In this document: piece by piece, positions 9,286 to 59,141 of the stretch
Position numbering within the stretch: the stretch's first letter is position 1
Layout: the number at the start of each line of letters is the position of its first letter
Assembly: GCA_963693285.1 (NCBI GenBank)
Contig: OY848918.1
Location: forward strand, 8,683,156-8,747,155
DNA from: Xestospongia muta
Taxonomy: Eukaryota > Porifera > Demospongiae > Haplosclerida > Petrosiidae
Direction: 5' to 3'
Length of the DNA stretch: 64,000 bases
Position numbers and translations under genes: made by a program
Notes under the pieces: model-generated
What the model saw: only the letters and a program-made list of their open reading frames with translations
Told to the model about the DNA's origin: nothing
Databases searched by the model: none

Positions 9286-11194
9286 TTAATTAATATATCC
9301 ATAAGCAGTATTTCCTTGTAATTCAATGATCTCTTTATGTTCTGAGGTCTCTGGTAACTTAACATCATCATATATTGGACCTAATTGGGTAGTAGTAGTG
9401 GGTGGAGTGTCTTTATTGTAGCTCCTCCTCCTCATAATGAGATAGACAATAAATGTAGTAATAACAGCAGTTAATAGAGAAGAGAGGAACATACTGACTG
9501 GTATACTCACTGTTAAGTAAACAATTCAGTAACGTAACATGTTTGTTTATAAATTACCTGCTAAATATGACATTTGTTGTTTGCTTTTATTAGCTATAAT
9601 GGAAATATAATTGTACACTTACACTTTTTTACATTTTTGACTATAATTTACTTGGACATGTACAAACAGTTGAAACTGTAGAAATTTGAGTAACTGAAGA
9701 ACTCAAGTAAGTGTCTGTCAAATAGATAAGTAATCATTTAGTCAACCTGGCTATATAGGACCTACCAGTTGAATAAAAAGATGTACTACTTGCTAGAATT
9801 GACAATGACATCAATGAACTTGTAGTGTCTATATTTTTCACAAATAGTTACTATAATTCACATTTATACTTACTGATATTTAATGAAGCACTTGTTGTGA
9901 TGACTGCAATAATATGAAAAAGTAGTAAATATATTTACTAATAAATAATACATTGATTACTTTCATTAAATGATGTTATTACAACACTAGTGATTATTGG
10001 TTGTTTAGGAATGATAACTGTATGAGAAGTAAATATAACACACTTTATAATAATATTTAAATAACCTATAGTCTTATTAGGGTATCCATCTCCTAATATA
10101 TTAACTGGTACCACTGTTATAATGTAGGTATATTCAGCTAGTACTCCAGTCAATGTAATGTTAGTAACAGTAGTTATATTAACATTTAGTGAACCTGATA
10201 TGTTGTGATAAACCTTGTAGTACAAGAGAGGAGGACGAGAGGAGAGAGGAGGTGACTAAATGAAATTAGAGTAACAATTTTATGAACAGTAATATACACC
10301 TCCCAAATCAGAACAATAGTGTAGTTCTCTGTATTCATTATAATATTACAAGTGATTAGTGGCACAGCCTGTAGAACTAATGAAGTATTTATTAATAGAT
10401 AAAAATTATTTTTATTCTTACCATCCAGAGTGAACACAGTATATAGACTATAGGGTCCTAATCTATCGATAATATCAGACCCTACTACTCTGTACTGATA
10501 CTCTACTGACTGAGAGAGACCAGTAGATATTTTAATACTGGTGATATTACTACCAGTACTAAGACTACTGATCAATATATTATCACTGGTTGTCATGATC
10601 TCAACAGTATAGTTAACTATACAGTTAGGATCAAGAGTAGGAGGTGACAAGTAGAGAATGACTGAAGTGTTTGTGAGAGCTGTAAAACCCAGTCCTGTGG
10701 GAGCATCGCTTGGAGAACCTTATAATGATAGTACATGTTTAGTTATAAATGATATTGTTAGTGACATACCTGATATCATAATAGTACAAGTCATTGAACT
10801 TCCATCATCAATACACCTGACTTGTGTTCCATTCTTATCAGTAGTGGCAGTAAAGCTTAAATTAGTTGTTAGTCCAGAATTGTTAATGCTCACAAGAGCA
10901 GCAGTAAACCCAGTATTAGGACCATTAAAAATTTGTCCAAAAGAACTTACTGTAGCAATGGGAGTATTATCTGATGGAGGAGAATACCAATGTGCTAAAC
11001 TGCCATTTATTTTACAAGTGAGTGCTCCTTGTGTCTGTGGACATACTCCATGATTACAGTCTAGATTTGTAACTGAAGCTTTTATGTTACCTGTAATAAA
11101 TCTTAGTACATTTTATTTCATATTATAACATCAACTCACCTATCACAATTATGACAATATAAACTATAGATGAAATAAACATGTATTTCTCCAT
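9286..11194 (-). CDS. Ig-FN3 receptor with ITSM-like tail (receptor 1), intact
   Basis: Eight exons join in phase to about 418 aa: signal peptide 11194-11140 (MEKYMFISSIVYIVIIVIG), Ig 11090-10770, FN3-1 10718-10422, FN3-2 halves 10376-10300 and 10255-10066, stalk 9903-9874 (30 nt) and 9828-9766, TM plus tail 9509-9286. The domain and stalk exons are in phase 1, apart from a phase-0 intron inside FN3-2. The Ig exon carries a Cys pair (TNLDCNHGVC and QVRCIDDG). The membrane segment is FLSSLLTAVITTFIVYLIM followed by RRRSYNK. The tail has GPIYDDV and ends NTAYGYIN: TAYGYI fits the ITSM pattern TxYxx[VI], 23 residues after the first Tyr. Type I cell-surface receptor; ligand unknown. One weak donor (GTTATT at 10065). 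Confidence 0.8.
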
Positions 11195-11459
11195 CTTGAG
11201 GAGTGGTATGTTGTGGGTTGAGTCAAAGGTTGTATGTATGTATAAGAGTGTATTGTTATAAGTTTATATATGTGTGTTAATGTGAGTATTGTTGCATAAC
11301 AACACAACAGTCATAATTAATAATGATTAATGTAAAAGTGGTATAGTCATGAAAATGTAAAATGACAAAATGTAAAACATAATAATGCAACAAGAAGCAT
11401 GATGATTTTAACAAATACCTTTGAGACATATAATATTATTTCAGCTTTACTTTCATTAG

Positions 11460-11786
11460 CTAATAATGTGTAGCAGGAACTATTCTTCTTGTTAAATGAA
11501 ATAAATATCTTTTATATAGCAAAGACATTAGTAGTTGTATTATTATTATCTTAATTATTGTCTCATAAACTGGAGGAGTATTAAGTGATGGTTGTTGTTC
11601 CATTGTACTATATGCTACATTCTCTGTTACTTCAATTGGTGACTGATCATCTGGTCCTTTAATTATACCATAGGCTTCATTTTTTTCTGAGAAAAACTCT
11701 TTTATCACTGGACTAGTCTCATCTCTTCCTTTATTTATTACACTACACAGATCAAGTACATGATAACCACATGCTTCACTAGGCAC
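11460..11786 (-). pseudogene. Orphan receptor cytoplasmic-tail exon with three Tyr motifs
   Basis: Minus-strand frame of about 108 codons; the useful part follows a splice-like GTGTAG. It reads GRDETSPVIKEFFSEKNEAY, then GIIKG, ENVAYSTMEQQPSLNTPPVY and ETI. The tyrosines sit in YGII, YSTM (p85-type YxxM) and YETI contexts. The start resembles the tail at about 40335-40400 (SRGETSPVIKEF), which is attached to a TM exon, so this is the tail of that receptor type. No TM, FN3 or Ig exon of its own is found upstream (to the right) before gene 13498 on the other strand. It could be a relic, or an exon spliced over a long distance. Confidence 0.6.
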
Positions 11787-12824
11787 ATGTTACATGTATA
11801 GATAGTCAGTCTACACTTCTTATGCATAGAGCTTGTGCAGTAGCTATAATAACATATATTATATAGAGTTCAAGAGACAAAATTAGTTTGAGATTTAGCT
11901 AATCCAGGCTTTACTTGTTGTCATTACAATTATTAACATGTTTTCAGTAAATATAAATTCTGAAAATGTATTTTATATGAAAACAATAACAGTAAAAGAA
12001 AAATTATATAAGTCTTAAAGTAAATACATACATAATATAAAAATTTATCACCATTAATAAACTACAAGCACAAATGGAAAGTACATGAACACTATACATT
12101 ATACTGAACTTTACTTTGTTCAACAGTACATGCTACTGTGATGATGTAAATGAATTTCCTCTGATATTGAAGCAGCTAAAAATTTCATAATTGAAACAGG
12201 AGTATAGTGCATTAATACAATAATTTAAATCTTAAATATATATAGTCACACAATGAAATATTAGCAGTTAGATTATAGTTATATAATGGAAGTAGAATAT
12301 TATAAATCAACATCAACATATAAAAGAGCATGTACTCCTTAAACTAAAAGCCATCTTACTCTATGACATTTTATACATATGTGTTATATGTGAAAGAAAT
12401 GAGTTTGTTATTTATAAATAAAAACTTTGTCATGTAAATATTGAATATATAGTCAAAATTAGAAAATTCCTTCATTGCATGGTACCTATATATAGATCAT
12501 TATCTACTTATTGTATAAATAGTCTCAGGAAAGATGACAACTAATAGTTGTTTCTCTTATAGTGAAACTGTTTTGTATGCAGTTATCATAATCATTCACA
12601 AGTGGTCACATTGGTATAACAAATATCAATTAATACAGCTTATTGATTCACATCAAATATGTACCACTACTGATTTGTTATCAATTGACATACAGTGTAC
12701 TGTGTGTGTATTATGTAAAGATCATTATCGAGAAACTGATGCATTATTATTTATATGTTAAAGCATATTTAAATACATGTGATGGTCACACAATTAAAAG
12801 TGTCAGTTGTCATATATATATATA

Positions 12825-12890
<66 letters not shown>

Positions 12891-12912
12891 TGTATGTATG
12901 TATGTATGTATG

Positions 12913-12943
<31 letters not shown>

Positions 12944-13497: not shown

Positions 13498-15119
13498 TTA
13501 ACAGTAACTCAATAACCATAAACAGTCTGGAAACCAGCAACAAATTCATCAACACGTACTACATGATACTAATGGTCCATTTATTGCACAGTTTGTATCA
13601 TATCAGAACAATAACATAATATCTACACTGTCTTTTACTGCTACTACTGTACTACATAATAAAGACATAGTGTGTGATGCTGGAGGTAAGTAGTAAGACA
13701 TGTAACATTATGATTATTGGTAAGATATTTATAAAGATACTATATATATTATTACTATTATTATATACTAATAGGTGAACCCACAGCTCCATTAAACCTC
13801 AGTGTTGTAGCTACTGCTCTTCATACAGTAGTTGTTACATGGACATCACCAGTTACTGGTAGTCAATGTATTGATCATTATATTATAACTGTGTTCAATG
13901 AAACACACAATACTATGATATCAGTTAGTATAACAAATAATATCACATCGCTCACAATATATGGACTAGTAAAAGGCAATAACTACTCACTTACTGTCAA
14001 AAGTATTGATTATGCTGGTAGAACTGGATCTAGTAGTCAGTCAATATACCTTGTATTTGATAGTAATGAAATATTATACAATGCTAATATTTTTCATACA
14101 ATTGCTATGCATTACAGTTCCAGAGTCAGTTGTTAATCTTACATTTTTTTTGATGAAACATACATGACAATTTTGGTTACATGTAAAGTAAGGTCAACAC
14201 AACAGAGTAACATTATGTTCCATTATCTATAGCCTCCTCCCTCTTCTCTGAGACCTCCAGTCATACATTACTATATCTATCATAACTTCACATCATATGA
14301 TGGCAGTATAATACACAATATTACTAACAATATAACACAACTCACTTTTAATGGTATTAGTTATGGTAACAAGTATAGTGTGACTGTAACAGCTGAAAAT
14401 GTGGTAGGACAAGGACCAGGAGTTAACATTGAAGGTAATGAGAAGACTAACAAAAATTAATTGATGCTTGTATAACAGTAATTATATCAGCACATTTATT
14501 TTCAACAAGTTTGTCATCAGTAAAAAGTACTTACTATATTTCACTGCCAACTTCAAGTTCAACAGTAGCATCTTCACAATTAATATTTGGCTCTTCAAAG
14601 ACACATCATGGTAAGATATGCAAGTACTTGATACTTGTTGTCTGTCATATAGTGAAAGACTACAATATGTACATTGGTATTTATTAATGTAGTTACTTCT
14701 ATTAATGGATACTCCACTTCTGTGATTACTTCAACATTGGTGTGTACATCTACATCACCACTAATGTTAACAAGAACTGTTACATCTTGTATAACGAGTA
14801 CAATGATAGAAAGCTCAAAAGAAGAATCCTTAAACTTATCAGGTAACATATATACAAATAATTTGTCTAAACTAACATTGTAAATCATTCATTGTACTGT
14901 GTATTTTTAGTTGTTATTCCAGTCAGTATGTTTCTCTCTTCTTTTCTTACTGCTGTTATTACAACTTTCATTGTTTATTTTGTTATGAGAAGGAAGAGTT
15001 GGTGTACAAAAGAGACTACTGCTAACCAATTGGTATCGGTATACGACTTACCAAAGAACTCAAATAAAGAGACCATTGAACTGAAAGAAAACACTGCTTA
15101 TGGACATATTCAGTATTAG
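13498..15119 (+). pseudogene. Ig-FN3 receptor 2, N-terminally damaged, tail intact
   Basis: Exons: Ig remnant 13498-13685, FN3-1 13775-14062, FN3-2 halves 14118-14187 and 14233-14434, Ser/Thr stalk 14521-14610 and 14693-14842, TM and tail 14911-15119. The tail has SVYDLP and ends ENTAYGHIQY (TAYGHI, ITSM-like). Damage: no signal exon; the Ig exon is only 188 nt against 303-321 in relatives and leaves the wrong phase; and the first FN3-2 half has a run of 8 T where 9 would keep the frame (about 14152-14161), giving a stop 8 codons later. That half also has Cys where relatives have Trp (TCK for FWE). All later exons are phase-consistent. It is either a young pseudogene or an allele or assembly with two small errors. 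Confidence 0.72.
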
Positions 15120-15279
15120 TCTTCATAATGTACCAAAATATTGTGTTTATAGTGTAGTTGATTTGAATATAATACTTTATATAAAGTATAGTTAGTATGG
15201 TTCAGTATGATAAAAATACTGTATGGACTAGGAAAATAAAATCAATAACTAACACTCCTAAATATATATAAACAAGATA

Positions 15280-15834: not shown

Positions 15835-16720
15835 CCTAATTTAGATATCATCAGACCCCACCTGTGCTGAAGTACACCAAAAATGTATATGTTTACAATA
15901 TGATGACCTCCTTCCTCCAGTACCTCTTTATTCAGCTGATAATGATCAGTCTATACCACTATGATAGTCTATACCATTGTTTCATGGTGAGATGAACCAC
16001 CTGTACATCCTTATAATGGACCTGTGACATGATATTTTGATTCAAAACACTTCATGTAATACTTGATACCAGTACAGCAGCTAGAGGAGACACTTCTGTC
16101 ATATAAAGAGATATAATATACCTCATGGACCACCTTATAGTACAGCAGATGAAGGCAACACTCTGTCTTAAAGAGAAAAAAGATAAAGAAGTTAGTTATA
16201 TGACATAGTCTAATTTATATACCATTGCTATAGAAGAGAGAAACTAACTTTAGTCAAAATAGATTGGGTTGTATTCAACTCTAAATAATTATAATGCAGT
16301 AAGTGTGAGATAATTTAATCCACCATATCATATAGTTAATATCTCACTGTCGTCAAATTAGCCAAACAAACCAGTTGGAGGAACTAAACCAAAGGAATAA
16401 TATATATACTGAACTAGGCAATGCTTCTAAAAAGAGACTAATAGTGGTACTTTCTTCATCACAATCTGTTATTTACTATGACATCAAGGCACCAACTGAC
16501 CTTAATAAGATATTATATTTCATAACAAATCAATGTTGCTATGGTTACCATTTTTTGTCACTAACAGAAGGTCTCTACAAAAGGTGCTATGACACAAGCT
16601 ATGTAGTTAGAAGACTTGGAAATCTCTCCACCACATACTCCTAAACTTGGTCCCAAATCAGGTTCCCACAACAGTAAAGGACAATTAGCAACAGTAACAT
16701 CCTACATACATCATCTTTAA
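15835..16720 (+). pseudogene. Long multi-tyrosine receptor tail, pseudogene copy
   Basis: A decayed plus-strand copy of the tail of the receptor at 48491-51658. Matching pieces, in order: LQYDDLLPPVPLYSADNDQ (about 15895-15955), remnants of the YSxLKR region near 16060-16190, GLYSTLNN in a shifted frame near 16266, NNIYTELGNASKK with SVIYYDIKAPTDLNK (about 16399-16508), and a last exon ending in TSYIHHL and TAA at 16720. Frame shifts and the loss of the donor after DLNK (ATATTA for GTATGA) disable it. The two ITIM-like motifs themselves survive (NIYTEL, VIYYDI). Confidence 0.75.
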
Positions 16721-18530: not shown

Positions 18531-18735
18531 TTGCTGGAGTTAACAATAAACTGTTACATAGTAGTAGGATGGGATATTATTAATAGATTAGGACCCTCTA
18601 GTCAGTATAGTCTTAGTACTGGTAGTAATATCACCAGTATTAATGTATCCATTGGTCTCTCTAAGTCAGTAGAATATTATTACAAAGTAGTAGGGTCTGA
18701 TGCTATTAATAGATTAGGATTAAGTTAGTGAACCT
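18531..18735 (+). pseudogene. Scrambled FN3 fragment
   Basis: Encodes SLSTGSNITSINVSIGLSKS, then VEYYYKVVGSDAINRLG, close to the FN3-1 of the receptor at 9286-11194. The motif VVG-D-INRLG appears both before and after it (about 18560 and 18690), so the fragment has been internally rearranged or converted. It joins directly to text from the FN3-2 exon (AACCTGATATGTTGTGAT, 18732). No splice sites remain. Confidence 0.65.
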
Positions 18736-21375: not shown

Positions 21376-22300
21376 CTGTTTGAAAGCAAAATTCATTACA
21401 AGAATTTAAAAAAATGATAACATATTAACCAATTTTTAAATATGATATTTATGATATTTTGTGTTTTTTCAAATATTAGTAATTTATTATCATATGATTA
21501 ATCAATATTGTCATTTTCAATTTCATTATCTCAATAATATTGTTAGAACTGCATCTACTTCATCAACTACCAGCTGTAATTAATAACACAACTATATCTA
21601 TCAGTTTCATTGGAAAGCACTAAAAGTAGCAACTTGTATTGGAGTGTATACAGTGTATATAATATTTGGGCTACAATAGCAATTCATATTATTTATATAT
21701 TGGCTAGCTATAATGTATAATGAGTGGATTGTATTTTATGTATGTAATTTATTGTTATTCTTATTGTATCATTGTATAAAGTCTGTAGATGATTGTTGAT
21801 ATGTTGGTGTATTTATTTATCAGGATGAAATAGTTTATATTTGCTAAAAGGATGATGCTCATGTCAAAATACGAATTTTAAAAATAATAACCATTAATAT
21901 AAATATACAAATACAATGTATATTCTCCAGATAATGATGCTAACTGCTGCTAATGAAACAAAGTGATCATATGAAGTTCAAATTGTATATAACTAGTAGT
22001 GTTGTTGTGGTATTGAACTTTATTAGTAATACTTTTAGTTATGGAATTTAAATTAATAATGAATTTTACTATTAGTTTTATATCATTTTTATTGGAAAAA
22101 TAATTGAAGTAGAACAATCTATTCATAGAGTACTTGACTGTGATTATTACATGTTACAGCTCAGTACACCTACAGAACTATAACTCAAAAGTATTACTTA
22201 GTAAATAAATATTTGTAAATGTTCAAATTTAGTTTGAGTTATAGCAATACTAATACTCATTACTACAATATTTAGTATATTTAATGACTACATTATATTA
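21376..22300. other. Non-coding
   Basis: AT-rich with no supported exon. Text near 21590-21790 (CTGTAATTAATAACAC, AAGTCTGTAGATGATTGTTG) partly recurs at 47350-48140. Confidence 0.45.
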
Positions 22301-22305
22301 TGACC

Positions 22306-22537
22306 TTGCTTGTCCATAATAGTCCCATATCAGTATAGTACCAGTAACATTACAAGTGAAGAGTACATCATCTCCAGAACATACTGGAGAGCAAGAGGGA
22401 GATGACTGTTGTAGACTAACTATATGATAAAAAATATATAAAAGTCAATTGGCCATGATATGGTTGCTGTACTTTGATCTCTACAGGACAGTATAGTCAG
22501 GACTAATGTTAACAAAGACATATCAAATTTTAACATG
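22306..22537 (-). pseudogene. 5' fragment of a receptor (signal exon and start of Ig)
   Basis: The minus strand holds a signal exon close to those at 21144 and 51658 (MLKFDMSLLTLVLTILSC), but the expected donor text CAAGGTAAGC is altered to CAAAGTACAGC. The first third of the Ig exon follows (SLQQSSPSCSPVCSGDDV, then CNVTGTILIWDYYGQ) and then stops abruptly at 22306. The remainder of the gene is absent. Confidence 0.75.
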
Positions 22538-22675: not shown

Positions 22676-23168
22676 TTAAATAGTATACACAGTACACTAT
22701 ATACACAGTATACATGTTATACATAGTGTACACACTATACACTATATACACAGTATACATGATATAAATAGTATACACACTATACACTACATACACAGTA
22801 TACGTGTTATACATAGTGTACACACTATACACTATATACACAGTATACATGTTATATATAGCATACACACTATACACTACATACACAGTATACATATTAT
22901 ACATAGTATACACACTATACACTACATACACAGTATACATGTTATATATAGTATACACACTATACACTACATACATAGTATACATATTATACATAGCATA
23001 CACACTATACACTACATACACAGTATAATATTATACATAGTATACACAGTATACTATATACACAGTATACATGTTATCATAGTATACACACTATACACTA
23101 CATACACAGTATACATGTTATACATAGCATACACACTATACACTATATACATAGTATACACAGTACAT
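22676..23168. repeat. TATAC-rich minisatellite
   Basis: About 490 bp of a 66-bp-class repeat built from CACACTATACACTACATACA and CAGTATACATGTTATACATA. The units are rich in the palindrome GTATAC, so both strands stay open for 70-117 codons (YTVYVVYSVY and similar). These are repeat artefacts, not genes. Confidence 0.9.
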
Positions 23169-23432: not shown

Positions 23433-24080
23433 TTATTTCACATAGATCTCATAATGGCCTACAGGACAATCTTCATCAGATGTACCTTCATCAAGACAGA
23501 TCCTCATTTCAATGTTGTCAGTAGTAGAGTAATTGAATTTCTTATAAAACCAAGGTATACCAGTACGTTGACAACAGGCAGTTTCTATACAACCACATTG
23601 ATGACCATCCCACAGAGGATCATTGGTATAGAATTTACCTAGTACTAGTGGTGAAATTGGACATTCAGGCTCGCAATAATAATCATTACCAACAAATGAT
23701 GGTGCATTTCTGGAATCTTTACTAGTACATGGACAATAACTCTTTTTTTGTTTTGTGTGCACCAACAATAAAAGTCCAATATGACTACAAGGGCTACCAT
23801 GAGTTAATAGAATGCCATCAACATAACTTGAATTGATGTTCTTGTTATTGCTAAAACGTGTTCTATCTATCCAGCCAAGTTGATATTCAATAACGTTACC
23901 ACATACTTGACAGTACTCGATGTTTCCTAATGGAAATGTTATTCCTACACAGCTACCTCCAACCACATGCTCGAACTCCATTTTCACTATGCAGTCTAAA
24001 TTCATCAGGACATTTCTCACTGCTATCTGTCATATTAATATAAACCACCCCCATCGAACCTCCTGTGGAATAACACAATG
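23433..24080 (-). pseudogene. Cysteine-rich invertebrate extracellular domain, frame-damaged
   Basis: The minus strand begins GSMGVVYINMTDSSEKCPDE near 24057, then FRLHSENGVRACG. After a frame shift it continues GGSCVGITFPLGNIEYCQVC, SSYVDGILLTHGSPCSHI, CPCTS, PSFVGNDYYCEPECP, LWDGHQCGCIETACCQRTG, PWFYKKFNYSTTDNIEMRIC and a short end before TAA at 23433. I recognise the layout (NMTD...CP-FR, ENGVRACGR, YVDG--LT-GSP--HIW, CPC, PSFVG-DYYC, LWDG-GCG--CC, PPWF, TTD-IE-RVC) from uncharacterised secreted or SRCR-linked proteins common in cnidarians, amphioxus and sponges. There are two further compensating indels around 23740-23785: the expected HIWTF segment is out of frame and CPC returns in frame. 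Role unknown. Confidence 0.75.
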
Positions 24081-25825: not shown

Positions 25826-26655
25826 TCAGGTATGAAGTGTATTTACTGCAAATACATACACACTATAACTGTTGTAGTAGAACATTTGACCACATGAGCT
25901 AGATACACACACACTATTTGGATGATTGGGACAACTAGATACTCTACAAGGATCACTGAAACATGATACTTCTTTAACATCATGTGGACATGATGAACCA
26001 TTGAGAATCATTGAGACAAATATATTATCACTGGTTGTCCTGATCTCAACAGTGTAGTTAACTATACAGTTAGAATGAAGAGTAGGAGGTGACCAGTAGA
26101 GAGTGACTGAAGTGTTTGTTAGAGCTGTAAAACCCAGTCCTGTAGGAGGATCACTTGGAGGACCTTATAATGATAGTACATGTTAGTGATATATGATACT
26201 GTTAATGGCATACCTGATATCATAATAGTACAAGTTATTGAGTTTGTATCTATCACATCACTACACCTGACTTGTGTTCCATTCTTATCAGTAGTGGCAG
26301 TAAAACTTAAATTAGTTGTTAGTCCAGAATTGTTAACACTCACAAAAGCAGCAGTAAACCCTGTTTTTTGACATTACTAACTTGTCCTAAAGACCTTACT
26401 GTAGCAATGGGAGTACTATCTGATGAAGGAGAATACCAAGCTGCTACACTACCTGTTATTGGACAAATGAGAGCTCCTTGTGTCTGTGGACATATTCCAT
26501 GATTGCAGTCTAGACTTGTAACTGAAGCTTCTATGTTCAATAAATTTTGTAATCAAACTCTACATTTTTATCACAATTATATCATTAACTTACCTATGAC
26601 AAGGAAGAAAATACTAACTAATGCTGCAATATACTATTAGCTCTTCATATTGAGG
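25826..26655 (-). pseudogene. Receptor pseudogene: Ig, half FN3 fused to a Cys-rich module
   Basis: From 5' on the minus strand: a destroyed signal exon near 26653-26594 (ATG AAG AGC TAA TAG), an Ig exon of the 9286-11194 type (NIEASVTSLDCNHGICPQTQ onwards) with a frame shift at an A run near 26370, then SVNNSGLTTNLSFTATTDKN and SCTIMISGM-like text. An FN3 start follows (TGLGFTALTNTSVTLYWSPP, then NCIVNYTVEIRTTSDN) which at about 26015 runs in frame into a different module: GSSCPHDVKEVSCFSDPC, RVSSCPNHPNSVCVSSSCGQ, ending TAG/TGA-bounded at 25826. The Cys pattern resembles DPC--SSCP-HP-A-C---CG modules seen in sponge secreted proteins. Confidence 0.72.
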
Positions 26656-27639: not shown

Positions 27640-27775
27640 TAATTGATGTATCTTTTAATTCATGTTCTTTCTCTGGTAACATATATATCTGACCTAATTG
27701 GGTGGCAGTAGTAGTAGCAGTGGATGGAGTGTCTTTGTTGTAGCTCCTCCTTCTCAAAATGAGATAGTTGATAAT
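27640..27775 (-). pseudogene. Receptor juxtamembrane and tail remnant
   Basis: The minus strand reads RRRSYNKDTPSTATTTATQL, then GQIY, matching the tail of the gene at 9286 (RRRSYNKDTPPTTTTQLGPI). The membrane segment is cut off at 27775 and the C-terminal AYGYI motif is missing. Confidence 0.7.
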
Positions 27776-27960
27776 AACATCAATTAGTCTTTATTTACAT
27801 AAATTGTACTAATGTTAGTCATATACAGTATCATGTTACAATAACTATAGTTATACATAGTTACTGATGGTAAAATAAACATGTCAATGTTGTGATATAC
27901 TTAAACTAACAACTCAAAGTAAATGATATATTTTGTACAAACATTACTTCAACTAAAACC

Positions 27961-28276
27961 ATTACATACTATATAGTCAATGTATATTGTATTATATATT
28001 ATGGACTGTTATTATTGGACAGTATTACATACTATATAGTCATTGTATGTTGTATTATATATTATGGACTGTTATTATTGGACAGTATTACATACTATAT
28101 AGTCAATGTATGTTGTATTATATATTATGGACTGTTATTATTGGACAGTATTACATACTATATAGTCAATGTATGTTGTATTATATATTATGGACTGTTA
28201 TTAATGGACAGTATTACATACTATATAGTCAATGTATGTTGTATTATATATTATGGACTGTTATTATTGGACAATA
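27961..28276. repeat. 63-bp tandem repeat, 5 copies
   Basis: The unit starts ATTACATACTATATAGTCAA and ends ATTATGGACTGTTATTATTG + GACAGT. Start positions are 27961, 28024, 28087, 28150 and 28213. Because 63 is a multiple of 3, two frames stay open across the array; these are not genes. Confidence 0.95.
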
Positions 28277-28639
28277 TTAGATGTAGAAACAACAACTGTA
28301 AAGTAAGAATTGATAAACATTATATATATTGACAGACCTTAAAGTATTGATGATGTAATAGTTAGATATAAAACTACCAATATTACAATCAAATTATTTA
28401 TACTTTGTTTTATATCAATATTTAGAGTCAGTCGTTATATTGTTTAATATATGTAGGATACAACAGAGATACTATTCTGTCAATGTAATGGTAGTAGTCT
28501 TAGTAAGAATATTACTGTAATAATGTTAATGACCATTATGTTATACATTTATTCTGTCTCTTCTGATATAAATACTTTGGGCTCTGATGTCATAGGTAAA
28601 GTAAATAACAAATATCAGTATTGTTATATAGGTATAATA

Positions 28640-29082: not shown

Positions 29083-31091
29083 ATGTTAAAACTTGATGTG
29101 TCCTGCTTGTTAGCATTAGTCCTGAATATACTATCATGTAGAACTCAAGGTAAGCAACAATATCATGACCAATTGACTTTTATAGATTTTATATCTTATA
29201 GTTAGTCTACAGCAATCATCTCCTCGTTACTCTCCAGTATGTCCTGGAGATAATGTAGTCTTCATCTGTAATGTCACTGGTACTATACTGACATGGGATT
29301 ATTATGGACAAGCAAGGGGATACTTAAATGGTAGTTCAAGTGACTCAGCTCTTGGTGGCTTTGATATCAGTCTTGTTAGTATAATGAATGGAGTGATTAG
29401 ATCAAAAGCTAGACTTCAACATGTCACATCTAATGATAATGGTAGAAATATAAATTGTACTGATACTAGTGCAGTACGACATCAGGCTACAGTTATAGTT
29501 GCTAGTAAGTTAGTATGATAAAATATATTATAATATTGAATTATAATTACTACATAGATATTCCCTCAAATCCACAAAATGTTACTTTCTCTCCTCTCAA
29601 TTCATCATTTCTCATATTATACTGGTCAGTACCATTGGAGAGTGGACACTGTATAGTTAACTACAGTGTTAAAGTGAACAATACTTGGCAACAACTAGTA
29701 ACCACTAATACTTCAGTAGTAATAACTGGTCTATCTGTTGGCTCAATATATGAGATTATAGTAACTGGAACAGACAGTGAAGGAAGACAAGGAGTTAACA
29801 GTGACTTACTATCTATTACATGGGATGGTAAGTGATACACTAACTTACTATTATGTTATCTGATATATCTAGTACCTCTACCAGCTATAACATTAAATGT
29901 CACTACTACTTATGAGAGATTATTAACAACTATTAACATATTCTGGGAGGTATGATACATCTATCATTAATGTACATTAACTATTCTGTAGTCAAATATT
30001 GATGCTACAAGACCACCAGTTCTGTACTATATAATATCTCATAATATTAATGGAGGAAATATCACTACAACTAATATGACTAATATTGTCTTCACTTATA
30101 ACACTATTATACCTGGAGTATATGATATTAATGTATCTGCTGTGAATATATTGGGAGAAAGTCTACAGAGAAATGTAGAAGGTATTAAATGTTTTAAAAG
30201 AAGTAGAAGGTATTATTGTTTCTTTATTTCTACATTGTTACACTATGCATGCTTTTAGTAAACATTGTCATAAATGTGGTCAACACGGGTAAAAATATAA
30301 CTTTAATAATATTTTTATTTTATATCATTTGATATTTAGCCAGCCACACAAATATTATGTTAACAACAGGTAATGTGTTGTTAATTAGTGACCTTTAAAG
30401 CACTATAATTATAATGTACCTTTTTTAGTTCAAACCTCAATAATATCAACAACTATTGGTAAGTATTTTCAATAATTAGTTCAAGGATTTATTTTATATT
30501 CACATATTATAAAAACTCTTTTACCAGCTGCAACATATATAGTAATTTTCCTCACGTTGTGTTAATTGTTATTACCTTTATTTAGATAGTTCTTTGTATT
30601 CACATATTCATACAGCATTGAGTATATTGACTAAACAATTACTGGAGACATCATTTGTTACTAAGACTACATCAACAAGTAATATGTGTTGCTACTATTT
30701 TAAAACTCCATACACTAAGTAGAGTAGAGTAAATATATTTAATATAAAATATCTTATTGAACCATTAATCTATGTGTGTTTGTTCAATTTGTAGGCTGTG
30801 ATGATTGCAATAACATAGAATGTGATGTGAGTACTTCTCTGTTAGGTAAACATAATTTTATTATTAATAACATTTAAACCACACACAGTTGCAGTTCCAG
30901 TTAGTGTCATACTGTCATCAGTAATAGCTATCATCATCACATCAATGATATGTTTGTTGATCATCTGGAAGAAACAAATGTCATACAAAGGGACTAAATC
31001 TCCTATATATGACACTCCTAATACAGCTAATGCTGAGAAACAGTGTCTTGAACTAAAAGACAACATTGCTTATGGAGAAATACATTACTGA
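29083..31091 (+). CDS. Ig-FN3-FN3 receptor with ITIM-like tail (receptor 4), intact
   Basis: Eleven exons in consistent phase, about 447 aa: 29083-29149 signal (MLKLDVSCLLALVLNILSC), 29202-29504 Ig, 29558-29827 FN3-1, 29873-29949 and 29992-30181 FN3-2, stalk 30259-30288, 30340-30369 and 30429-30458 (three 30-nt exons, 10 residues each), 30586-30678, 30795-30845 (CDDCNNIECDVSTSLL), 30889-31091 TM plus tail. The FN3-1 exon has the usual Trp (LILYWSVP) and Tyr (IVNYSVKV, SIYEIIV). TM segment VILSSVIAIIITSMICLLII; tail GTKSPIYDTP and ending DNIAYGEIHY. IAYGEI is an ITIM-consensus site, 21 residues after the first Tyr. It is the inverted partner of 19071-21144. At the stalk position where receptors 3 and 5 have GC donors, this gene has GTAAGT. 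Confidence 0.85.
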
Positions 31092-32394: not shown

Positions 32395-32802
32395 TAGTAT
32401 GATTAATAAACAAAGATAAAAATAAGTGATTGATGGTATCTGATAAGTTTTAGTATGATAAGTGATAACAAGAGGATGATTAGTAAATAAGCATATTTAC
32501 TTTAGATTTAAAAGTGATTAGAGATGAGCTAGATTTCACATGATAAGGAAGTGAATTTCACAGAGAAATAATAGAAGGGACAAATGAGTTTTGCGAAGCA
32601 GGTAAGTGAGAAAAAGGGATAGTAAAGGTGAGAGGATCAAAGTGATGAGAAACATGATTTGATGAAGATTTATGGATGAAAATACCAGAAGGAAAATAAA
32701 GGAAGTTGTTAGTAATTTTATAGAGAAGACATAAGTTAGAAATAGAGTGACAAGTTGAGGGAGGCGGAAGGTTAAATATTGAAAGAAGAGATGAGTAATC
32801 AT
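32395..32802 (-). mobile_element. Non-LTR retrotransposon 3' end, inverted, 5'-truncated
   Basis: The minus strand matches the last about 90 codons plus 3' UTR of the element at 32795-35100, piece by piece and with frame shifts: SSLLSIFNL, SISNLCLLYKITNNF, HFDPLTFTIPFSH, the LISNHF region, then TTATCATACTAAAACTTATC and TTAATCATACTATATCC. It is a 5'-truncated LINE copy, as expected from incomplete target-primed reverse transcription. Confidence 0.75.
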
Positions 32803-35100: not shown

Positions 35101-35264
35101 AAATAATTCTAAGTTCCTGGCTACTTTCCTGTTATTGCTTTATATATAATTACTTAATAATATTATACATCACAATATGTAAGAATGTTTTTTGTAAGCT
35201 GGTTACACATGTGACATCATTTCCTTCCAGCATGCTATAGCATTTTTTTGACTAGCAAAATGCT

Positions 35265-40110: not shown

Positions 40111-40334
40111 AATTGGAATTATTATTACAAAATTGTAAAAAATGTCTGATACATTTGTTTAAATATGTTTACTGTTATATTACTTTGTTGTATTTTTGAA
40201 ATCATTAGTGATCTCATTATCGTTAATCTAAGAACAATCAACCTTACCTTTTTAAAAGTTTTTTTAACTGTAATTTTGTTTGGCTATAGAATGCATTTTA
40301 TAAAATTATCTATCACTATTATTATCTTAATTTA

Positions 40335-40700
40335 CTGTCTCATAAACTGGAGGAGTATTAAGTAGAACTCTTTTATCACTGGACTAGTCTCACCTCTACT
40401 CTGTTTAGTACTGGACACTAGTAGGACACACACACATACAGTGGTAATAGTACAACTCACTACTATATAGTACTGACCTTTATATATCAAGACAATAGTT
40501 AAAATAACAATTATTATTAGTACTAGTAAGATAACAACACTACTAATAATACCAGCAATAACTGCTTCACTTAGTACTAGATTTAAGAGCAATACTCAAC
40601 AACAGTAGTAGTATATAACTTATCTGATACCATAGATATTACTGTGGTAGTAGGTGTGGGTTCTAAAATTATAACATTGGACAAATGGTAAGACATTGTA
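40335..40700 (-). pseudogene. Receptor TM exon and deleted tail
   Basis: Minus strand: a Thr-rich stalk near 40660-40620 (PTPTTTVISMVS), a TM exon after CTAG near 40584 (VLSEAVIAGIISSVVILLVL, then a run of Ile/Val and YKG), and a tail exon start (TKQSRGETSPVIKEF) near 40410-40365. The tail then jumps to text equivalent to SLNTPPVYET: relative to the orphan tail at 11460-11786 the segment holding two Tyr motifs is deleted and the frame is broken. It shows which TM type went with that tail. Confidence 0.68.
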
Positions 40701-48490: not shown

Positions 48491-51400
48491 TTACAGGTGA
48501 TGCATGGAGGAGGTTACTGTTGTAGATTGTCCTCCACTGCCATGGGAACCAGCTTTGGGACCAGTTTTAGGAGGAAGTGGTGGAGGAGTCTCCAAGTCTC
48601 CTAACTGAGCCTGTATTATTACAGCTCTCATAGAAAGCATCTGTAGTGACAAAGAAGAGAATGATAACCATAGCAACATTGATGTATCATAACATATGTC
48701 ATACCTTATTAGGGTCAGTCGGTGCCTTGATATCAGAGTAGATAACAGACTGCTCTAAATTTGATAAATTTGATGTAGGAGGTGCCATTGGTCTGTTCTT
48801 AGAAACATTGCCTAATTCAGCATATATTATACCCGCAGTTCTTTTTGGCTCAGCTCCAGCTCTAGTTGGTTTGTTTATCTAACAAAATGTAAGTTATTAT
48901 GATATAGTTGACTATATTATCTCATACTTCATTATTTAGAGTTGAATACAAACCAGTCAGTTGTGACTGAGAATTATTTTCTATGCTCTATAATATTATA
49001 AATTAGACTATGATTCTATCTATGTTTAATGAACCTCTCTCTCTTCTCTCTTCAAGGTAGAATAATCTCTTCCAATTACTGTACCATAAGGTTGTCCATG
49101 AGGTACATCATCTCTCTTTAACATAGAGTAATCCTCAGCTGTCATGTTATGAAGCAGTGCATGAGATATATCCTCTCTCTTTAAAATCGAGTAATCTTCT
49201 CCAGCTCCTGTTCCATGAGGTACCATGTGATCTCTTTTGACTTCAGGGTACTGTGCTATCACAGTTCCATTATAAGGAGGTATAGGAGGTTTATCTCCAC
49301 CATGGAACAGAGATATAGAAGGTGGTTGGTCATTATCAGCTGAATATGGAGGTATTGGAGGTAGGACTTCATCATATTGTAATGATAAAGATTGTGGTTT
49401 CTTCTTTACTTCATCATAGGTGGAATCTGATGATAACTGTAATAAAACAGTAATAATAACCAGAAGTTAATGAAATGTACGTATAATTTATTGTATTTTG
49501 AACTGACTTCATTTGAAAGAGGAGTAGTTTGTAAAAAACTTGTTTCTTTTGTTGACTGTAAAGGTAATCATAATCAATGAAAAAAAATATTTTATATAAT
49601 TTTCTTACTTCATTTAAGTTACCACTGTCCCTATGAAAAAGAAAAAATATTAAACTACTCTCAATAATTGTCGTTTTAGTGTGAATCCTTTCATAAAGGA
49701 CAATCTAAAGTAATCAGACTCTATATTTTGATCTAGTCATGTTCTTAAGTGTATTATTCTATTAAGAACACTTCTATATTAAGGCCAGTCCCATTACAGA
49801 GAGGCCCCACTGTACTAACAATTCTATTACCTTTCTGAAAAACTGTTTTCTGACATCTTGTAACCTACACATATAACAACATCTAGTAAGTATAAACAAT
49901 TATAGTATGTGTCTACCTTTAAATCTCTTTCTGTATATAACAGTAACAGTAAGTATAATAGTTATAACTAACAGGATAGCTACCACAATTCCACTAATAG
50001 TACCAGCAATAGCAATGTTTGGGTTACTTGTGTTGTTATTGGTGCCAGGTGTAATGGTGCCTATAGTATAAAAAGAAATGTAAGTGAAGTTTAGACAATA
50101 ATATTACTTGTTGGTGGTGTTAGTGATGGTATTGTAGTTGATTTAGAGATCATTACTTTATGCACATATGAAATAAGATTATATAATTAATATACGTGAT
50201 TATAGTATTTACCAAGTAAAGTGATGAGAGTTTCACTACTACTATCATGTGTTAAAAAAGTGTCTATAAAAGTGAATGAATCCTTGAATTAACTATTGAA
50301 TAGACTTGCCAGTAGTTATTGGTATAAGTTTAGAGGTTTGAGCTAGTGTATAAAAAACTACATAATATTATTTTGAAATGATGACACCAATCAATAAAAC
50401 ATTACCTGTTGTTGACATAACATTTATGCCGCTGGCTAAATATCAAATGATATAAATTTATTATTATTAAAGTTATATTATTACCTTTACTGACCAGGTT
50501 TATGACAATGTTTACTAAAATCATGCATAGTGCAATTACTTTAGAAATTATTGAACATTTATACCTGTTACATTTCTCTGTAGACTTTCTCCCAATATAT
50601 TCACAGCAGATACATTAATATCATATACTCCAAGTATAATAGTGTTATAAGTGAAGACAATATTAGTCATATTAGTTGTAATGATATTTCCTCCACTGAT
50701 ATTATGAGATATTACATAATACAGTACTGATGGTCTTGAAGTATCAATATTTGACTGTAGAATAGTTAATGTACATTAATGATAGATGTATCATACCTCC
50801 CAGAATATGTTAATAGTTGTTAATAACCCCTCATAAGTAGTAGTGACATTTAATGTTATAACTGGTAGAGGTACTAGATATATCAGATAACATAATAATA
50901 AGTTAGTGTATCACTTACCATTCCATGTAACAGTTAGTAAGTCACTGTTAACTCCTTGTCTTCCTTCACTGTCTCTTCCAGTTACTATAATCTCATATAT
51001 TGAGCCAACAGATAGACCAGTTATTACTACTGAAGTATTAGTGGCTACTAGTTGTTGCCAAGTATTGTTCACTTTAACACTGTAGTTAACTATACAGTGT
51101 CCACTCTCCAATGGTACTGACCAGTATAATACGAGAGATGATGCATTGAGAGGAGAGAATGTGACATTTTGTGGACTTGAGGGAATATCTGTTTGTGGTA
51201 ATATTCAATATGATATATTTTTGTAAAGTTAACTTACCAGCAACTATAACTGTAGCCTGATGTCTTATAAGATTAATATCACTACAATTTATATTTCTAC
51301 CATTATCATTAGATGTGACATGTTGAAGTCTAGCTTCTGATCTAATCATTCCATTCATTATACTAACAAGAATAATGTTAAAGCCACCAAGAACTGTGTC

Positions 51401-53132: not shown

Positions 53133-53356
53133 TTAATTAATATATCCATAAGCAGTATTGCCTTGTAATTCAATGATTTATTTCTGTTCTGAGGTCTCTG
53201 ATGACTTAACATCATCATATATTGGACCTAATTGGGTAGTAGTAGTGGGTGGAGTGTCTTTGTTGTACCTCCTCCTCCTCATATTGAGAAGGACAATAAA
53301 TGTAGTAATAACAGCAGTTAATAGAGAAGAGAGGAACATACTGACTGGTATACTCA
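53133..53356 (-). pseudogene. Receptor-1-type TM and tail exon with nonsense codon
   Basis: Close copy of 9286-9509: SIPVSMFLSSLLTAVITTFI, then RRRRYNKDTPPTTTTQLGPI and YDDV. A TAA replaces the codon before IIELQG, so the ITSM-like AYGYIN end, still present in the DNA, would be cut off. The acceptor is intact. No upstream exons are found on this strand before 54 kb. Confidence 0.78.
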
Positions 53357-53799
53357 CTGTTAAGTAAACAATTCAGTAATATAACACGTTTGTTTTATAA
53401 ATTACCTTCTAAATATAACATTTGTTGACTTTCAATAGCTATATTGGAAATTTATTTGTATTATTTAGTGGCACATAATGTATTATATATACATATATAG
53501 ACCAGCTATAAAACAATAATACTTATTGTTGAAAAGACTTGGGCAGAGATGTAATAGATATGAAAAAACATTTCAGACTTTATATTTGTCTGGAAAACCA
53601 ATACTAAAAATCAATAAACAAAACCAAGCTATATATACAATACAACAACCAGTCAAAATAAATCTAAGAATTCCATAGCAACAACCAATGAGTTAGCTGG
53701 AAAAGAGTCCTCAACACAATTGGTTGAAGTGAGCAAGGTTGTTTCCATTTTCTAACCAGAGATCTCATCAGCAGACAGGGCAGATACACACAAAGTCCT

Positions 53800-54744: not shown

Positions 54745-54967
54745 GTTTCTATTCCGGTCAGTATATTCCTCTCTTTTTCATTAACTGCTGTTATTACTAC
54801 ACTTATTTCTATCTCATTATGAGAAGGAGGAGCTACAATAAAGACACTCCATCCAATACTACTACCCAATTAGGTCTGATATATGATGATTTAAATCACC
54901 AGAGACCTCAGAACAGAAAGAGATTATTGAATTACCAGGAAATACTGCTTGTGGATATATGAATTAA
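54745..54967 (+). pseudogene. Receptor-1-type TM and tail exon, frame-shifted, Tyr lost
   Basis: SIPVSIFLSFSLTAVITTLI is followed by two frame shifts around MRRRSYNKDTPSNTTTQLGL and IYDDLN. The end reads ETSEQKEIIELPGNTACGYM: the key Tyr of AYGYI is Cys (TAT to TGT). Together with 53133-53356 it brackets a broken 5' region on the opposite strand. Confidence 0.78.
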
Positions 54968-55880: not shown

Positions 55881-55884
55881 TCAA

Positions 55885-56285
55885 GTTGTACAATAACAAA
55901 AAGATTACTATAACCTACAAATAGCCTGAAACTAGTGAATGCACTAAAATAAAACTCGAGTATACTGCAAGTATAAAGATCTTAATTATAAGTTTGTACT
56001 TTTATCAATTTTCAAGGGTCTTCACTGCAAAAAATAAAGACATTAATAATTATATTTTTAAAGTATAACTAACATTATAGGTCCACGTCTTGATTTGTTT
56101 TTCTTTATTATATAGACAATGATAACAACAGCAAGAATTATAAATGTAATTATAATTAAAAGAAGTATAGCAATAGGAACTATAATTTCATAAGCAAGAA
56201 CTTTCTTGATATCTGTGAAATAAACACACATCCAGTAAAATAATGTCATAAGCCATTCCTTCAACAATACATCCATATGATACTG
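55885..56285 (-). pseudogene. Duplicated TM exon of receptor 6
   Basis: After an ATTTCACAG acceptor (about 56214) the frame reads DIKKVLAYEIIVPIAILLLI, a long Ile/Val/Leu membrane segment, then YIIKKNKSRRG. Intron sequence on both sides matches 57580-58010, so a segment of about 400 bp was duplicated. The donor GT of the copy at 57779 is GA here (GTGGACC), so it probably cannot be spliced onward and would read through to a stop a few codons later. It could serve as an alternative terminal TM exon or be dead. Confidence 0.6.
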
Positions 56286-56440: not shown

Positions 56441-57238
56441 TTAACCTCGCTGCGCGTGGGCGCAAAACGAGAGTACTGTAGTCTATCAGTGTGTGTGTGT
56501 GTGTGTGTGTGTGTGTCTGCACTGCATGCCTGTTACTGGGGATTGTTTTTGAACTGCTATAACTTGGCAAGCGAAGCGTTAGAAGCTACCAACGTTTAGC
56601 AACGAATAGAAAAACGTGTGGACTTTACAACAGTAGTGTCAAAAACTTAATGTGGAGATTTTTTAGTATGTTGTAGAGAATCTTAAAGGAATATGCATCA
56701 GCAAGACAGAAGGTCGTTGGTCGAAGCAATTAATCGTTAGAAAAGTTCTGAAAAGTGTTTTCAAGATTGTACATGGACTTAGAGCGAAGTAACGCATTCA
56801 GGAAACGTCGCAAAGCACTGACAAAACTGCTACTAATAGATAATATATCGATTTATATTTGTACTACGGGACGTTTCCAAAGAACGTTTCCTTTTCAAGT
56901 TACAATAAATTTTGTATATTAAATATTGATACATTTTAAAGCGTCATGTAAAGGCTCAGAGAAACTTTCATCACGAATCTAGCACTTAATCTTGCTTGGC
57001 AATTGAATGATACTATTACTTACTCAGTTACAGCTCCAAAGACATGTCAATTAGAGTGCAAAGTACCCAATAAACGACAAAGCTTTTTCCCTTTGATTGA
57101 AGTGAAATGCTGAGTCATCAAACAACAGTTTGTAATGTGCATCACGTGATCTTTAAACAATTTGACCACACCTTGTCCGATCTTAAATGTACATGTACAT
57201 GCAGTATAGATCTACACTGGGCACCGCAGCGAGGTTAA
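56441..57238. mobile_element. Non-autonomous TIR element of about 800 bp, copy 1
   Basis: Begins TTAACCTCGCTGCG and ends with its reverse complement CGCAGCGAGGTTAA. The interior contains a (GT)n tract at about 56490-56516 and text such as AACTTGGCAAGCGAAGCGTT, all shared with 62112-63003. GC content is visibly higher than its surroundings. It sits between the two TM exons of receptor 6. No transposase is present and no clear target-site duplication was seen. Confidence 0.85.
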
Positions 57239-57239
57239 G

Positions 57240-57640
57240 CACTATGCTGCCATCCAAAGCTACAATTATTTTTAGATATTTTTATTTTGTAAATTACGTG
57301 GGTGTATAAACTATTTCTATTGTTGTATGCATGTGACAGATTTGCCTTAAGAATATCATTATATGGCAATACGTACCTCAATGATGTCTTTACAATATAC
57401 TTTCTTGAAACACGTGCCATAGATAACACCGTCCCACAATCTTAGACTTGTCTTGAAGGGGCAATGTCTGCTTTAATGGTTACATGATATGTATGCAAAG
57501 ATAATGCAATGACTCCCAATAAGGTATTTTTTATAGGTTTTAATTGTAATTTAAATTGTATAATAATTACAATCAAAATAAACATTATGTTTAAGACGTT
57601 TTACATCTTATGAACAAAAAGATTACTATAACCTACAAAA
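57240..57640. other. Non-coding
   Basis: No exon recognised; the right flank of the TIR element. Confidence 0.4.
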
Positions 57641-57719
57641 CAGCCTGACATTATAGTGTATGCATGAAAATAAAAAATCTAGTATATTGGAAGTAGAAAC
57701 TTCATACATATTTTGACTT

Positions 57720-59141
57720 TTCAAGCTGCAAAAAAGAAAAGATTATATCTATAAAGTATAATTAACATTGCATGTGTACCTTTTGGTTTTTTTACTTTTT
57801 TAACACAGAAACAAATACCACCACCACCAGCAATTAAAATTCCAGCTAGGGCTAGTACTGCACTGATAGTTATGGCAATTTTTTCACCTATATTAAGTTT
57901 CTCTGTAAAATAAATACACATCCAGTAAAATAATGTTATAAGCCATTCCTTCAACAATACATCCATATGACACTGAACAATCCTACACTTCAACAAACTA
58001 AAAATTGAAGTTCTTCGCCCATTATTAACAGAGTTAGTTTACCATTAGTATCTGGTGTAGCTGTAGTTGTTGGGACAGGGCTAGGGCATACTCTTTCTGG
58101 AACCACTATTAAAACAACAATATATTACTACACATTTCCATTAGTAAATCACTTGTTGTAAGAGTGCTAAAATCCCCATCTTGAAAGTTGTTAGAAGCAG
58201 CCACTTCTATTGTTATATTTTTTCCTTGCTCACTTAGATCTAGAAGGAAAGAAAAGTCATCAGTTGTTGTAGTTGTAGTATTTGGCCCATAGTGAACAAT
58301 ATAATAATAGTTAGTTGTTTGGAAGCAAGAATCATCACCAGAATACTAAAGAATGAAATACTGTGATTATTTATATTAAAAAAATCAGATCATATATACC
58401 GTCCAATTAACAAATACATTGATATGTGTTCCATTAGAAGTGCAATTAAATGTACTAAATGTAGCACCAAGGTCTTCTACCTGGATTGGTTCTATATTGA
58501 AAAAATAGATAAACAAATGTATTGCAGCAACATACTTTTAAGACTGATTGTTACAGAAGGACCAGGTTGATTTGCTCCATTAATCAGTTGTAGAGTACTG
58601 TTACTGTAGTCACTATTATCACAAAGATGAGAAATGGAATACAAAGTGTTATTTGTTGAAAATGGTCCCATTAAACATCCACTATCACTACTAGAAAAGG
58701 TGATGTTATATGATTTAAAACAACGAGCAGTCGGTGAGTTAGCAGCTGAATCCCAGTATATTGTAACAGCTGTCTTATTTGAGGCAACACATCTAGGACT
58801 ATTACCAGAATATATTAGATCATCATCTTCAATATTAATGGTCTCTTCTCTAGTCACAGAACCATCAAAACATTGGATAGTTTTACCATCATCAGCTAGT
58901 GTTGCTTTTTCAAGTGTAGCAGTTGATACAAATGTCATTGACTCGACACTCAAAAGGACAATTGTAAAACGGTCATAAGGTTGAGGACTGTTTATAGAAC
59001 TACCAGAAGAGTACGTTAAAGCTGAAAGAGGAGATACTTGCCAAAATAAGAAATTAGCATTTGTCACTGTGCAGTTCAGGACAACATTACCATCAGGGCA
59101 AACTTTTTTCCCTTCAGCAGGAGATATTTGAGTAACAACAA
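57720..59141 (-). CDS. Ig-FN3 receptor with very short tail (receptor 6), 5' end not found
   Basis: Exons in consistent phase: 59141-58536 (Ig and first FN3 in one exon), 58491-58400 and 58345-58153 (second FN3-like), 58105-58043 (stalk, CPSPVPTTTATPDTNG), 57902-57780 (TM: ITISAVLALAGILIAGGGGI, then KKVKKPK). The Ig has CPDGNVVLNC, a Trp (LFWQVSP) and DDGKTIQCFDG, the classic D-G-x-C-type end. FN3-1 follows directly (CVASNKTAVTIYWDSAANSP, then SYNITFSS). The next acceptor (TTTTTTGCAG, about 57726) gives a stop within two codons, so the cytoplasmic part would be about 9 residues with no Tyr. No signal exon was seen up to 64000. Unlike receptors 1-5, Ig and FN3-1 are not separated by an intron. 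It could be a signalling-deficient partner or decoy. Confidence 0.7.

Follow-up and report, generated by a model that had tools for sequence, protein, structure and literature searches.

A receptor cluster in the sponge Xestospongia muta as a probable part of a 1.38-Mb complex built like paired immune receptors

We analysed a stretch of 64,000 nucleotides on chromosome 2 of the giant barrel sponge, Xestospongia muta, at 8.683-8.747 Mb (G000:C2:8683156-8747155; hereafter the window), for which a cluster of type I membrane receptors with immune-type tyrosine tails had been proposed from the letters alone. The original prediction placed the DNA in a sponge, correctly, since X. muta is a haplosclerid demosponge, and counted at least five related receptors. 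Three of these, M1, M2 and M3, proved intact. Each splices cleanly and with consistent phases into a signal peptide, an immunoglobulin (Ig) domain, two FN3 domains, a stalk, a transmembrane (TM) segment and a tail, and the introns are GT-AG throughout, save one GC-AG in M2. The other two, M4 and M5, are probable receptor genes only.

M1 (51658-48491, minus strand) has 15 exons with canonical splice sites and encodes 669 amino acids, ending in a long tail. Its V-set Ig domain (51540-51238), first FN3 domain (51188-50919), second FN3 domain with one intron inside (50873-50565), TM segment (50060-49917), which follows the stalk, and long tail (49864-48491) all lie on the minus strand. The tail motifs are named here as immunoreceptor tyrosine-based inhibitory, switch and activation motifs (ITIM, ITSM and ITAM) and YxxM. 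The main exon of the M1 tail (49035-49436, minus) contains STYDEV, LQYDEV, PPIPPY, AQYPEV and three DYS[IMT]LKR repeats, and the last two exons (48491-48878, minus) add the ITIMs IIYAEL and VIYSDI (48878-48705) and the SH3-type sequence PPPLPPK (48640-48491). Because the main exon has a stop two codons beyond its donor, a shorter M1 tail is possible. M2 (21144-19071, minus; 11 exons, 454 amino acids) and M3 (29083-31091, plus; 10 exons, 437 amino acids) are 85% identical, and both have a short tail with the ITIM-like motif NIAYGEI. M5 (11194-9286, minus) is a receptor of another Ig subfamily, IgC, with a short ITSM-like tail (PIYDDV, NTAYGYI); its frame stays open only when a 53-base intron is left in the transcript, as canonical splicing shifts it. 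M4 (59389-57721, minus; 395 amino acids) belongs to a diverged subfamily, IgD, and reads as Ig-FN3-FN3-TM with a tail of about 10 residues; the model has two unusual donors and a stop directly after the acceptor of its last exon.

That similar ectodomains carry differing tails, as had been predicted, was borne out by comparing M1 with M2. The ectodomains agree at 64% over 439 aligned residues (79% in the Ig domain, 89% in the first FN3 domain), whereas the tails gave no useful alignment, the best (E 0.028) being located in the TM segment. We searched 158,027,690 bases of the genome in 28 contigs; the assembly, odXesMuta1.1, is given as 158.52 Mb in 298 scaffolds in the accessible part of its description, where the stretch of uncertain order on chromosome 2 (16.1-18.9 Mb) lies away from the window (PMC12398682). 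The best non-self matches of the Ig exon and the long-tail exon of M1 had E values of 8.4e-53 and 2.9e-53, and the likeness among these receptor exons is far beyond chance. Of the predicted domains, FN3 passed the Pfam cut-off of 25 bits in M1 (38.7 bits, 1.1e-09), M2 (32.2 bits, 1.3e-07), M3 (35.1 bits, 1.5e-08) and a degenerate relative, M6 (43.9 bits); the first FN3 domain of M5, at 23.7 bits, fell just under it. The membrane-distal domain is modelled as a V-set Ig, with a two-sheet V fold, the cysteines of strands B and F and the tryptophan of strand C. The model used the frame of the IgC V-set domain exon of M5 (10768-11109, minus); a first model, built from five Ig exons, was discarded for its low confidence (pLDDT 49.6).

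The window lies near one end of a complex that spans 1.381 Mb of chromosome 2. The M5-type Ig exon (IgC) had at least 151 matches genome-wide, 147 of the 150 listed falling inside the complex, and the M1-type Ig exon (IgA) had 56. The counts exclude, for IgC, three matches located elsewhere and six that are the second half of a split exon and, for IgA, five matches located elsewhere, four already listed as IgC exons, and the M4 Ig. What remains is at least 187 Ig-exon places in the complex, whole or partial, 26 of them with a stop. The long-tail exon of M1 had 97 matches, 96 of which lie on chromosome 2 between 7.47 and 8.75 Mb, and the short-tail exon of M5 had at least 150, with 149 of those listed at 7.37-8.74 Mb of the same chromosome. 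Among the matches listed, tail places in the complex number at least 147 short, 92 long and 38 of a third type; one outside match was left out of the long list and one of the short, two matches from a separate search were added to the short, and 66 outside matches and six second halves were left out for the third type. The IgC and short-tail lists hold the best 150 of 259 and of 220 candidates, so that the counts for the complex are lower bounds. Among the matches listed, stops were flagged in 57 of the 96 for the long tail, in 29 of the 151 for the short tail and in 3 of the 39 for the third tail. While 173 of the 187 listed Ig places are on the plus strand, M1, M2, M4 and M5 of the window are on the minus strand. 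Three pairs of equal-scoring matches on chromosome 2 (8224723/8279121, 8227620/8282018 and 8230892/8285290) are each exactly 54,398 bases apart, which points either to a segment duplicated recently or to one segment assembled twice.

Each Ig place was paired with the tail closest to it on the same strand, 0.7-4.5 kb downstream and with no other Ig between, a rule of position rather than of transcripts, under which 164 of the 187 listed Ig places have a tail and 23 have none in reach. Among the matches listed, M5-type Ig exons were followed by 61 long, 55 short and 5 third-type tails (20 by none), and M1-type exons with their looser relatives by 4 long, 22 short and 17 third-type tails (3 by none), so that every kind of tail occurs with each of the two Ig subfamilies. 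For each kind, the order Ig, FN3, FN3, tail is visible directly in contiguous DNA. A hybrid gene at C2:7461621 combines an M1-type Ig with M5-type FN3 domains and a short tail. We built a tree from the 51 of 141 IgC exons that were near full-length and stop-free (27 with long, 23 with short and 1 with third-type tails). Long and short labels required 16 changes on this tree, compared with a mean of 16.8 after shuffling (201 of 500 shuffles were as low), and well-supported branches alone forced 8 changes of tail. Likewise, the synonymous distance between tail classes (0.132) was no different in kind from those within classes (0.120 and 0.141). In the 51 exons sampled, V-domain phylogeny is thus independent of tail type, and recombination has reassorted V domains and tails. 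Paired receptors are expected to combine homologous ectodomains with contrasting tails within a single cluster, and the layout seen by the original prediction stands, on a far larger scale: the V tree ignores the tail type. We also considered that alternative splicing may join one ectodomain to several tails, although in the regions examined an ectodomain is mostly followed by one tail set. A strict alternation of tail types along the chromosome is ruled out, as the order is blocky.

The exons differ in the selection that they record. Ratios of nonsynonymous to synonymous divergence (dN/dS) were estimated by the Nei-Gojobori method with a bootstrap over genes, using only stop-free, near full-length exons. 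The M5-type Ig exon gave 1.12 (1.00-1.23; 51 exons), compared with 0.55 (0.47-0.64; 32 exons) and 0.37 (0.29-0.50; 17 exons) for the first and second FN3 exons of the same subfamily, 0.34 (0.26-0.51; 8 exons) for the first FN3 exon of the M1 family, and 0.30 (0.27-0.35; 16 exons) for short tails. Most of the highly variable IgC sites lie at model residues 38-64, 100 and 103. In the strands and loops assigned to the front sheet (residues 37-64 and 96-110) the mean nonsynonymous difference, pN, was 0.224, as compared to 0.082 in the rest (25-36 and 65-95; permutation p 5e-5), a post hoc comparison, since the boundaries were drawn from the secondary structure of the model after the variable sites were known. 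None of 85 circular shifts gave a front-sheet pN as high, and 16 of the 20 most variable sites fall within it. A recognition role, which had been suggested for these genes, thus gains support from the M5-type V domain, alone in having a dN/dS of at least 1, and from the clustering of variation on its front sheet.

Three kinds of tail recur: the long tail, the short tail with one ITIM/ITSM-like motif, and the third tail, with YSTM-x11-YETI. Of the 282 residues of the M1 tail, 13 are tyrosines, and 9 of these have an aliphatic residue at +3 (YxxPhi), compared with 2.1 expected (p 5e-5). If an ITIM is defined as [ILVS]xYxx[ILV] on the cytoplasmic side of a type I receptor, the M1 tail contains four (STYDEV, LQYDEV, IIYAEL and VIYSDI; p 0.002), besides PPPLPPK, and the M2 tail contains one. 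The main long-tail exon is conserved in the 11 stop-free copies examined and in eight public proteins (six on contigs shorter than 3 kb), with the LQYDEV tyrosine lost in several copies. Many of the stops flagged in long tails are probably intron read-through, because a shorter exon with the same end residues occurs in the public proteins P0003, P0005 and P0006. Given the shorter exons, we doubt for many of the flagged copies that they are pseudogenes. In short tails, both tyrosines were retained in all 16 stop-free copies examined, and the context of the second is mostly ITSM-like (TAYGYI or TAYGHI). The third tail had been noticed as an orphan exon and is indeed a real type, with 111 matches in the genome, 45 in the complex and 66 elsewhere (C1, chromosome 2, C4, C7, C11 and C12). 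Its EAYGII...VAYSTM-x11-YETI is conserved in the copies examined; the methionine at +3 places it outside a strict ITAM. Matches outside the complex are 48-95% identical and form clusters at 0.44-0.56 Mb of chromosome 2 and on C1, C4, C7 and C12. This spread marks it as an older, widely shared tail, which other receptor arrays probably carry as well.

On their motifs, the long and short tails look inhibitory or adaptor-like, and an activating role may be envisaged for the third. This genome encodes the machinery on which tails of this sort rely elsewhere: we found four single-frame genes with two SH2 domains and a phosphatase domain in the order of SHP (three in tandem on C3, one on C5), a fifth such set in several frames on C8, and nine frames on C8 with SH2 and kinase domains, eight of them in tandem. 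The receptors described here would presumably use it. Tandem tyrosine-kinase arrays in single open frames lie at 6.53-6.58 Mb of C8 (with SH2) and at 1.18-1.27 Mb of C6, and tyrosine-phosphatase exon arrays at 0.3-0.7 Mb of C7, 3.76-3.99 Mb of C11, 0.98-1.33 Mb of C12 and 9.41-9.70 Mb of chromosome 2. On C7, C11 and C12 the phosphatase exons are near FN3 exons, possibly as expansions of receptor-type phosphatases.

Relatives were also found among public proteins. Whole M1 had no match among 7993 scored proteins, whereas the M5 Ig exon had 117 relatives; our guess is that queries with single exons succeed because the database presents eukaryotic genes exon by exon. On public contigs of 1,554,166 and 841,867 bases, 17 of 22 and 6 of 21 relatives match the genome DNA examined at 98.5-100%, indicating that these contigs come from the same animal or a close copy. 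None of the 33 related Ig proteins on a 1,454,069-base contig reached 98.5% to the DNA examined (51 Ig exons), and one of them, P0041, had a best match of 82% genome-wide, among 150 scored of 306 candidates. This contig comes from a second haplotype, a different animal or a different species.

Vertebrate paired receptors (LILR, KIR, SIRP, CD300 and Siglec) set near-identical ectodomains on contrasting tails in a tandem array and use ITIMs. The sponge receptors resemble them in all three respects. They differ in that no orthology was seen and the third tail bears tyrosines of its own. The ground plan is also that of two invertebrate systems, as far as the available passages describe them: the Botryllus fuhc locus, with V-type Ig receptors that have ITIM and hemITAM tails, and the Hydractinia Alr complex, with ITIM and ITAM motifs, which are regarded as convergent and for which those passages name no sponge equivalent (PMC12065747). 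Like Alr in these partial accounts, the sponge complex has clustered V-set Ig receptors, ITIM/ITAM-type motifs, variation in gene content and putative activating and inhibitory members. Unlike Alr, which has 41 genes, it belongs to another phylum and has at least 187 Ig-exon places; compared by description only, it also has a pair of FN3 domains in each receptor, and its three recurrent tails are mixed among two V subfamilies. Botryllus FcoR, according to the same kind of partial account, is likewise a multigene family of type I receptors with variable-type Ig domains in a histocompatibility locus, and its tails are ITIM, hemITAM or a bare Y-x-x-I/L/V, but it has sushi and C2-type Ig domains where the sponge has FN3, in a locus of about 800 kb with 53 loci. 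Among sponge proteins, the Ig-bearing receptor tyrosine kinase and adhesion molecules of Geodia cydonium share Ig-like domains with the present receptors, but the available descriptions do not present them as ITIM-tailed arrays. The SRCR and NLR expansions of sponges are likewise enlarged families of candidate recognition proteins, but have other domains, and the part of the source available, a genome paper on the related X. testudinaria that treats SRCR expansions, mentions no paired tails (PMC4772301). In the literature within reach, which leaves out most subscription journals and preprints, we found no sponge described as having arrays of receptors with ITIM tails. Until now the layout has been described for the immune receptors of vertebrates and for genes that govern tissue compatibility in cnidarians and sea squirts.

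Taken together, these results make it probable that the window belongs to a complex, 1.38 Mb long, in which type I recognition receptors have diversified in the germline and are organised in the manner of paired immune receptors. As read from the DNA, each receptor consists of a V-set Ig, two FN3 domains, a stalk, one TM segment and one of three tyrosine tails, and the same V-domain lineages stand on different tails. In the mechanism that we propose, the V domain would bind a diverse or polymorphic partner with its variable front sheet, and Src-type kinases would phosphorylate the tail. The long tail, with its ITIMs and SH3-type prolines, and the ITIM/ITSM-like short tail would then recruit SHP-type phosphatases with two SH2 domains and damp the cell. 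The third tail, in which YSTM-x11-YETI combines a PI3K-type YxxM with ITAM-like spacing, would signal oppositely or modulate, and gene duplication with exon exchange would ensure that V domains which match remain attached to tails of opposite effect. Either the cells of another sponge or microbes would be the partner.

Several observations weigh against this reading. V domains and tails were joined by position, and the tail types are clustered along the chromosome, with 72 switches in 163 against a shuffled mean of 99; this blocky order indicates local duplication rather than strict pairs. The bootstrap bound for the M5-type Ig reaches down to 1.00, and the M1-family Ig gave a dN/dS of 0.83 (0.62-1.12; 12 exons), the long tails 0.75 (0.61-0.97; 11 exons) and the second FN3 exon of the M1 family (FN2A) an uninformative 0.97 (0.60-2.49; 7 exons). 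The 50-base intron beside the Ig exon has a divergence, K, of 0.042 (31 introns), compared with 0.135 at synonymous sites of the exon, so that synonymous divergence may fail to reflect the neutral rate; constraint on that intron, or exon exchange that may have shaped the synonymous rate, must be allowed for. By motif counts alone, neither the M2 short tail (YxxPhi p 0.50, ITIM p 0.11) nor the third tail (YxxPhi p 0.056, no ITIM) reached significance. The Ig domain, predicted along with FN3, fell under the Pfam cut-off; a Foldseek search with its model gave no match at E <0.001, and a sequence-profile search of the PDB with profile A2 gave none, while another run gave 18 weak matches (best E 0.15), 14 of them antibody or nanobody chains. 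Vertebrate activating partners use a charged TM residue that pairs with an ITAM adaptor, and no charged residue was found inside the TM segment of the examples inspected (one long, two short, one third-type and M4). Since this feature is lacking there, we describe the complex as working like paired receptors or allorecognition complexes and do not file it under any named receptor family.

It is possible, though we hold the view tentatively, that this is the histocompatibility region of the barrel sponge, with V domains that bind homophilically or to polymorphic partners of the same species and tails that decide between fusion and rejection. The ground plan shared with Hydractinia Alr and Botryllus FcoR, clustered families with ITIM- and activating-type members in the passages available, speaks for it (PMC12065747). 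So does the turnover of the repertoire relative to the 1,454,069-base contig, as expected of a histocompatibility region, but that contig could be an alternate haplotype or stem from another animal or species. Moreover, Grice et al. 2017 reportedly tied sponge allorecognition to aggregation factors. The fuller claim, that well over 100 V-set receptors over inhibitory- and activating-type tails make up a sponge histocompatibility region and that paired immunoreceptor logic was already present in sponges, seems to us doubtful; if it held, that logic may go back to the root of the animal tree or may have evolved more than once after it.

We regard it as somewhat unlikely that the receptors instead sense microbes or symbionts, in which case germline V domains would recognise microbial or microbe-induced surface molecules and the tails would set tolerance or attack. 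Diversifying selection and gene turnover fit such an arms race, and several symbiont genomes were assembled along with X. muta, a sponge with a rich microbiome, in the accessible part of that account (PMC12398682). The sequence itself gives no hint of a microbial ligand, however, and proteins from either kind of partner would suit the front-sheet pattern. That the variable V domains serve as barcodes of cell adhesion or identity within one body, the tails merely tuning adhesion, is unlikely: Ig with FN3 is an architecture typical of adhesion molecules, and the SH3-type prolines of the long tail could link to the cytoskeleton, but V domains at a dN/dS of at least 1, freely mixed with tails, are unusual for a housekeeping adhesion family, and the M1 tail has 9 of 13 tyrosines in YxxPhi context and four ITIMs. 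A mostly dead repeat array, expanded in tandem with little function beyond a few genes, is highly improbable, for although the window holds about 10 fragments, 23 of the 187 listed Ig places lack a tail and stops are flagged, notably in long tails (57 of 96), 161 of the 187 are stop-free, short tails and IgC-subfamily FN3 exons have a dN/dS of 0.30-0.55, the short tails keep both tyrosines and many long-tail stops are probably read-through. As a complex with the ground plan of paired receptors, the sponge locus would extend paired-receptor logic to another early animal branch; it offers a concrete candidate region for sponge self/non-self recognition and a natural experiment in the exchange of V domains between signalling tails.

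The remaining receptor pieces in the window are M6 and about 10 fragments besides, close to the more than ten predicted. M6 (13540-15120, plus) has a degenerate ectodomain with an FN3 domain (13774-14064; 2.9e-11) and a partial one (14236-14430; 1.2e-05), both plus, and an open short tail (14911-15119); directly downstream lies a degenerate long tail with stops (15845-16720, plus). There follow an FN3 fragment (18555-18719, plus), a signal and half-Ig fragment (22292-22536, minus), an IgC and FN3 fragment (25988-26537, minus), and a short-tail fragment with an approximate end (27659-27790, minus). Further along are a TM segment with a third-type tail that has an internal deletion (40333-40559, minus) and two short-tail fragments, one with a stop (53136-53357, minus) and one with a broken frame (54745-54938, plus). 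The orphan third-type tail exon itself (11556-11789, minus; match at C2:8694711) has an open frame with EAYGII, VAYSTM and PVYETI. A second TM-like exon, read by eye, adjoins M4 (56081-56212, minus), with no ectodomain of its own seen.

Beside the receptor genes there is a transcription-factor gene, with a POU domain and the start of a homeodomain (2161-2730, minus; Pfam Pou 5.8e-22). A cysteine-rich open frame of 198 amino acids (23433-24029, minus) had no Pfam match at E 0.01. Amid the array lies a broken element that by eye resembles a long interspersed nuclear element (32776-36900, plus), whose endonuclease piece matched Exo_endo_phos_2 at 7.4e-06, just under the cut-off. At 22680-23160 and 27961-28279 lie arrays that repeat units of 45 and 63 bases in tandem and are open in several frames.

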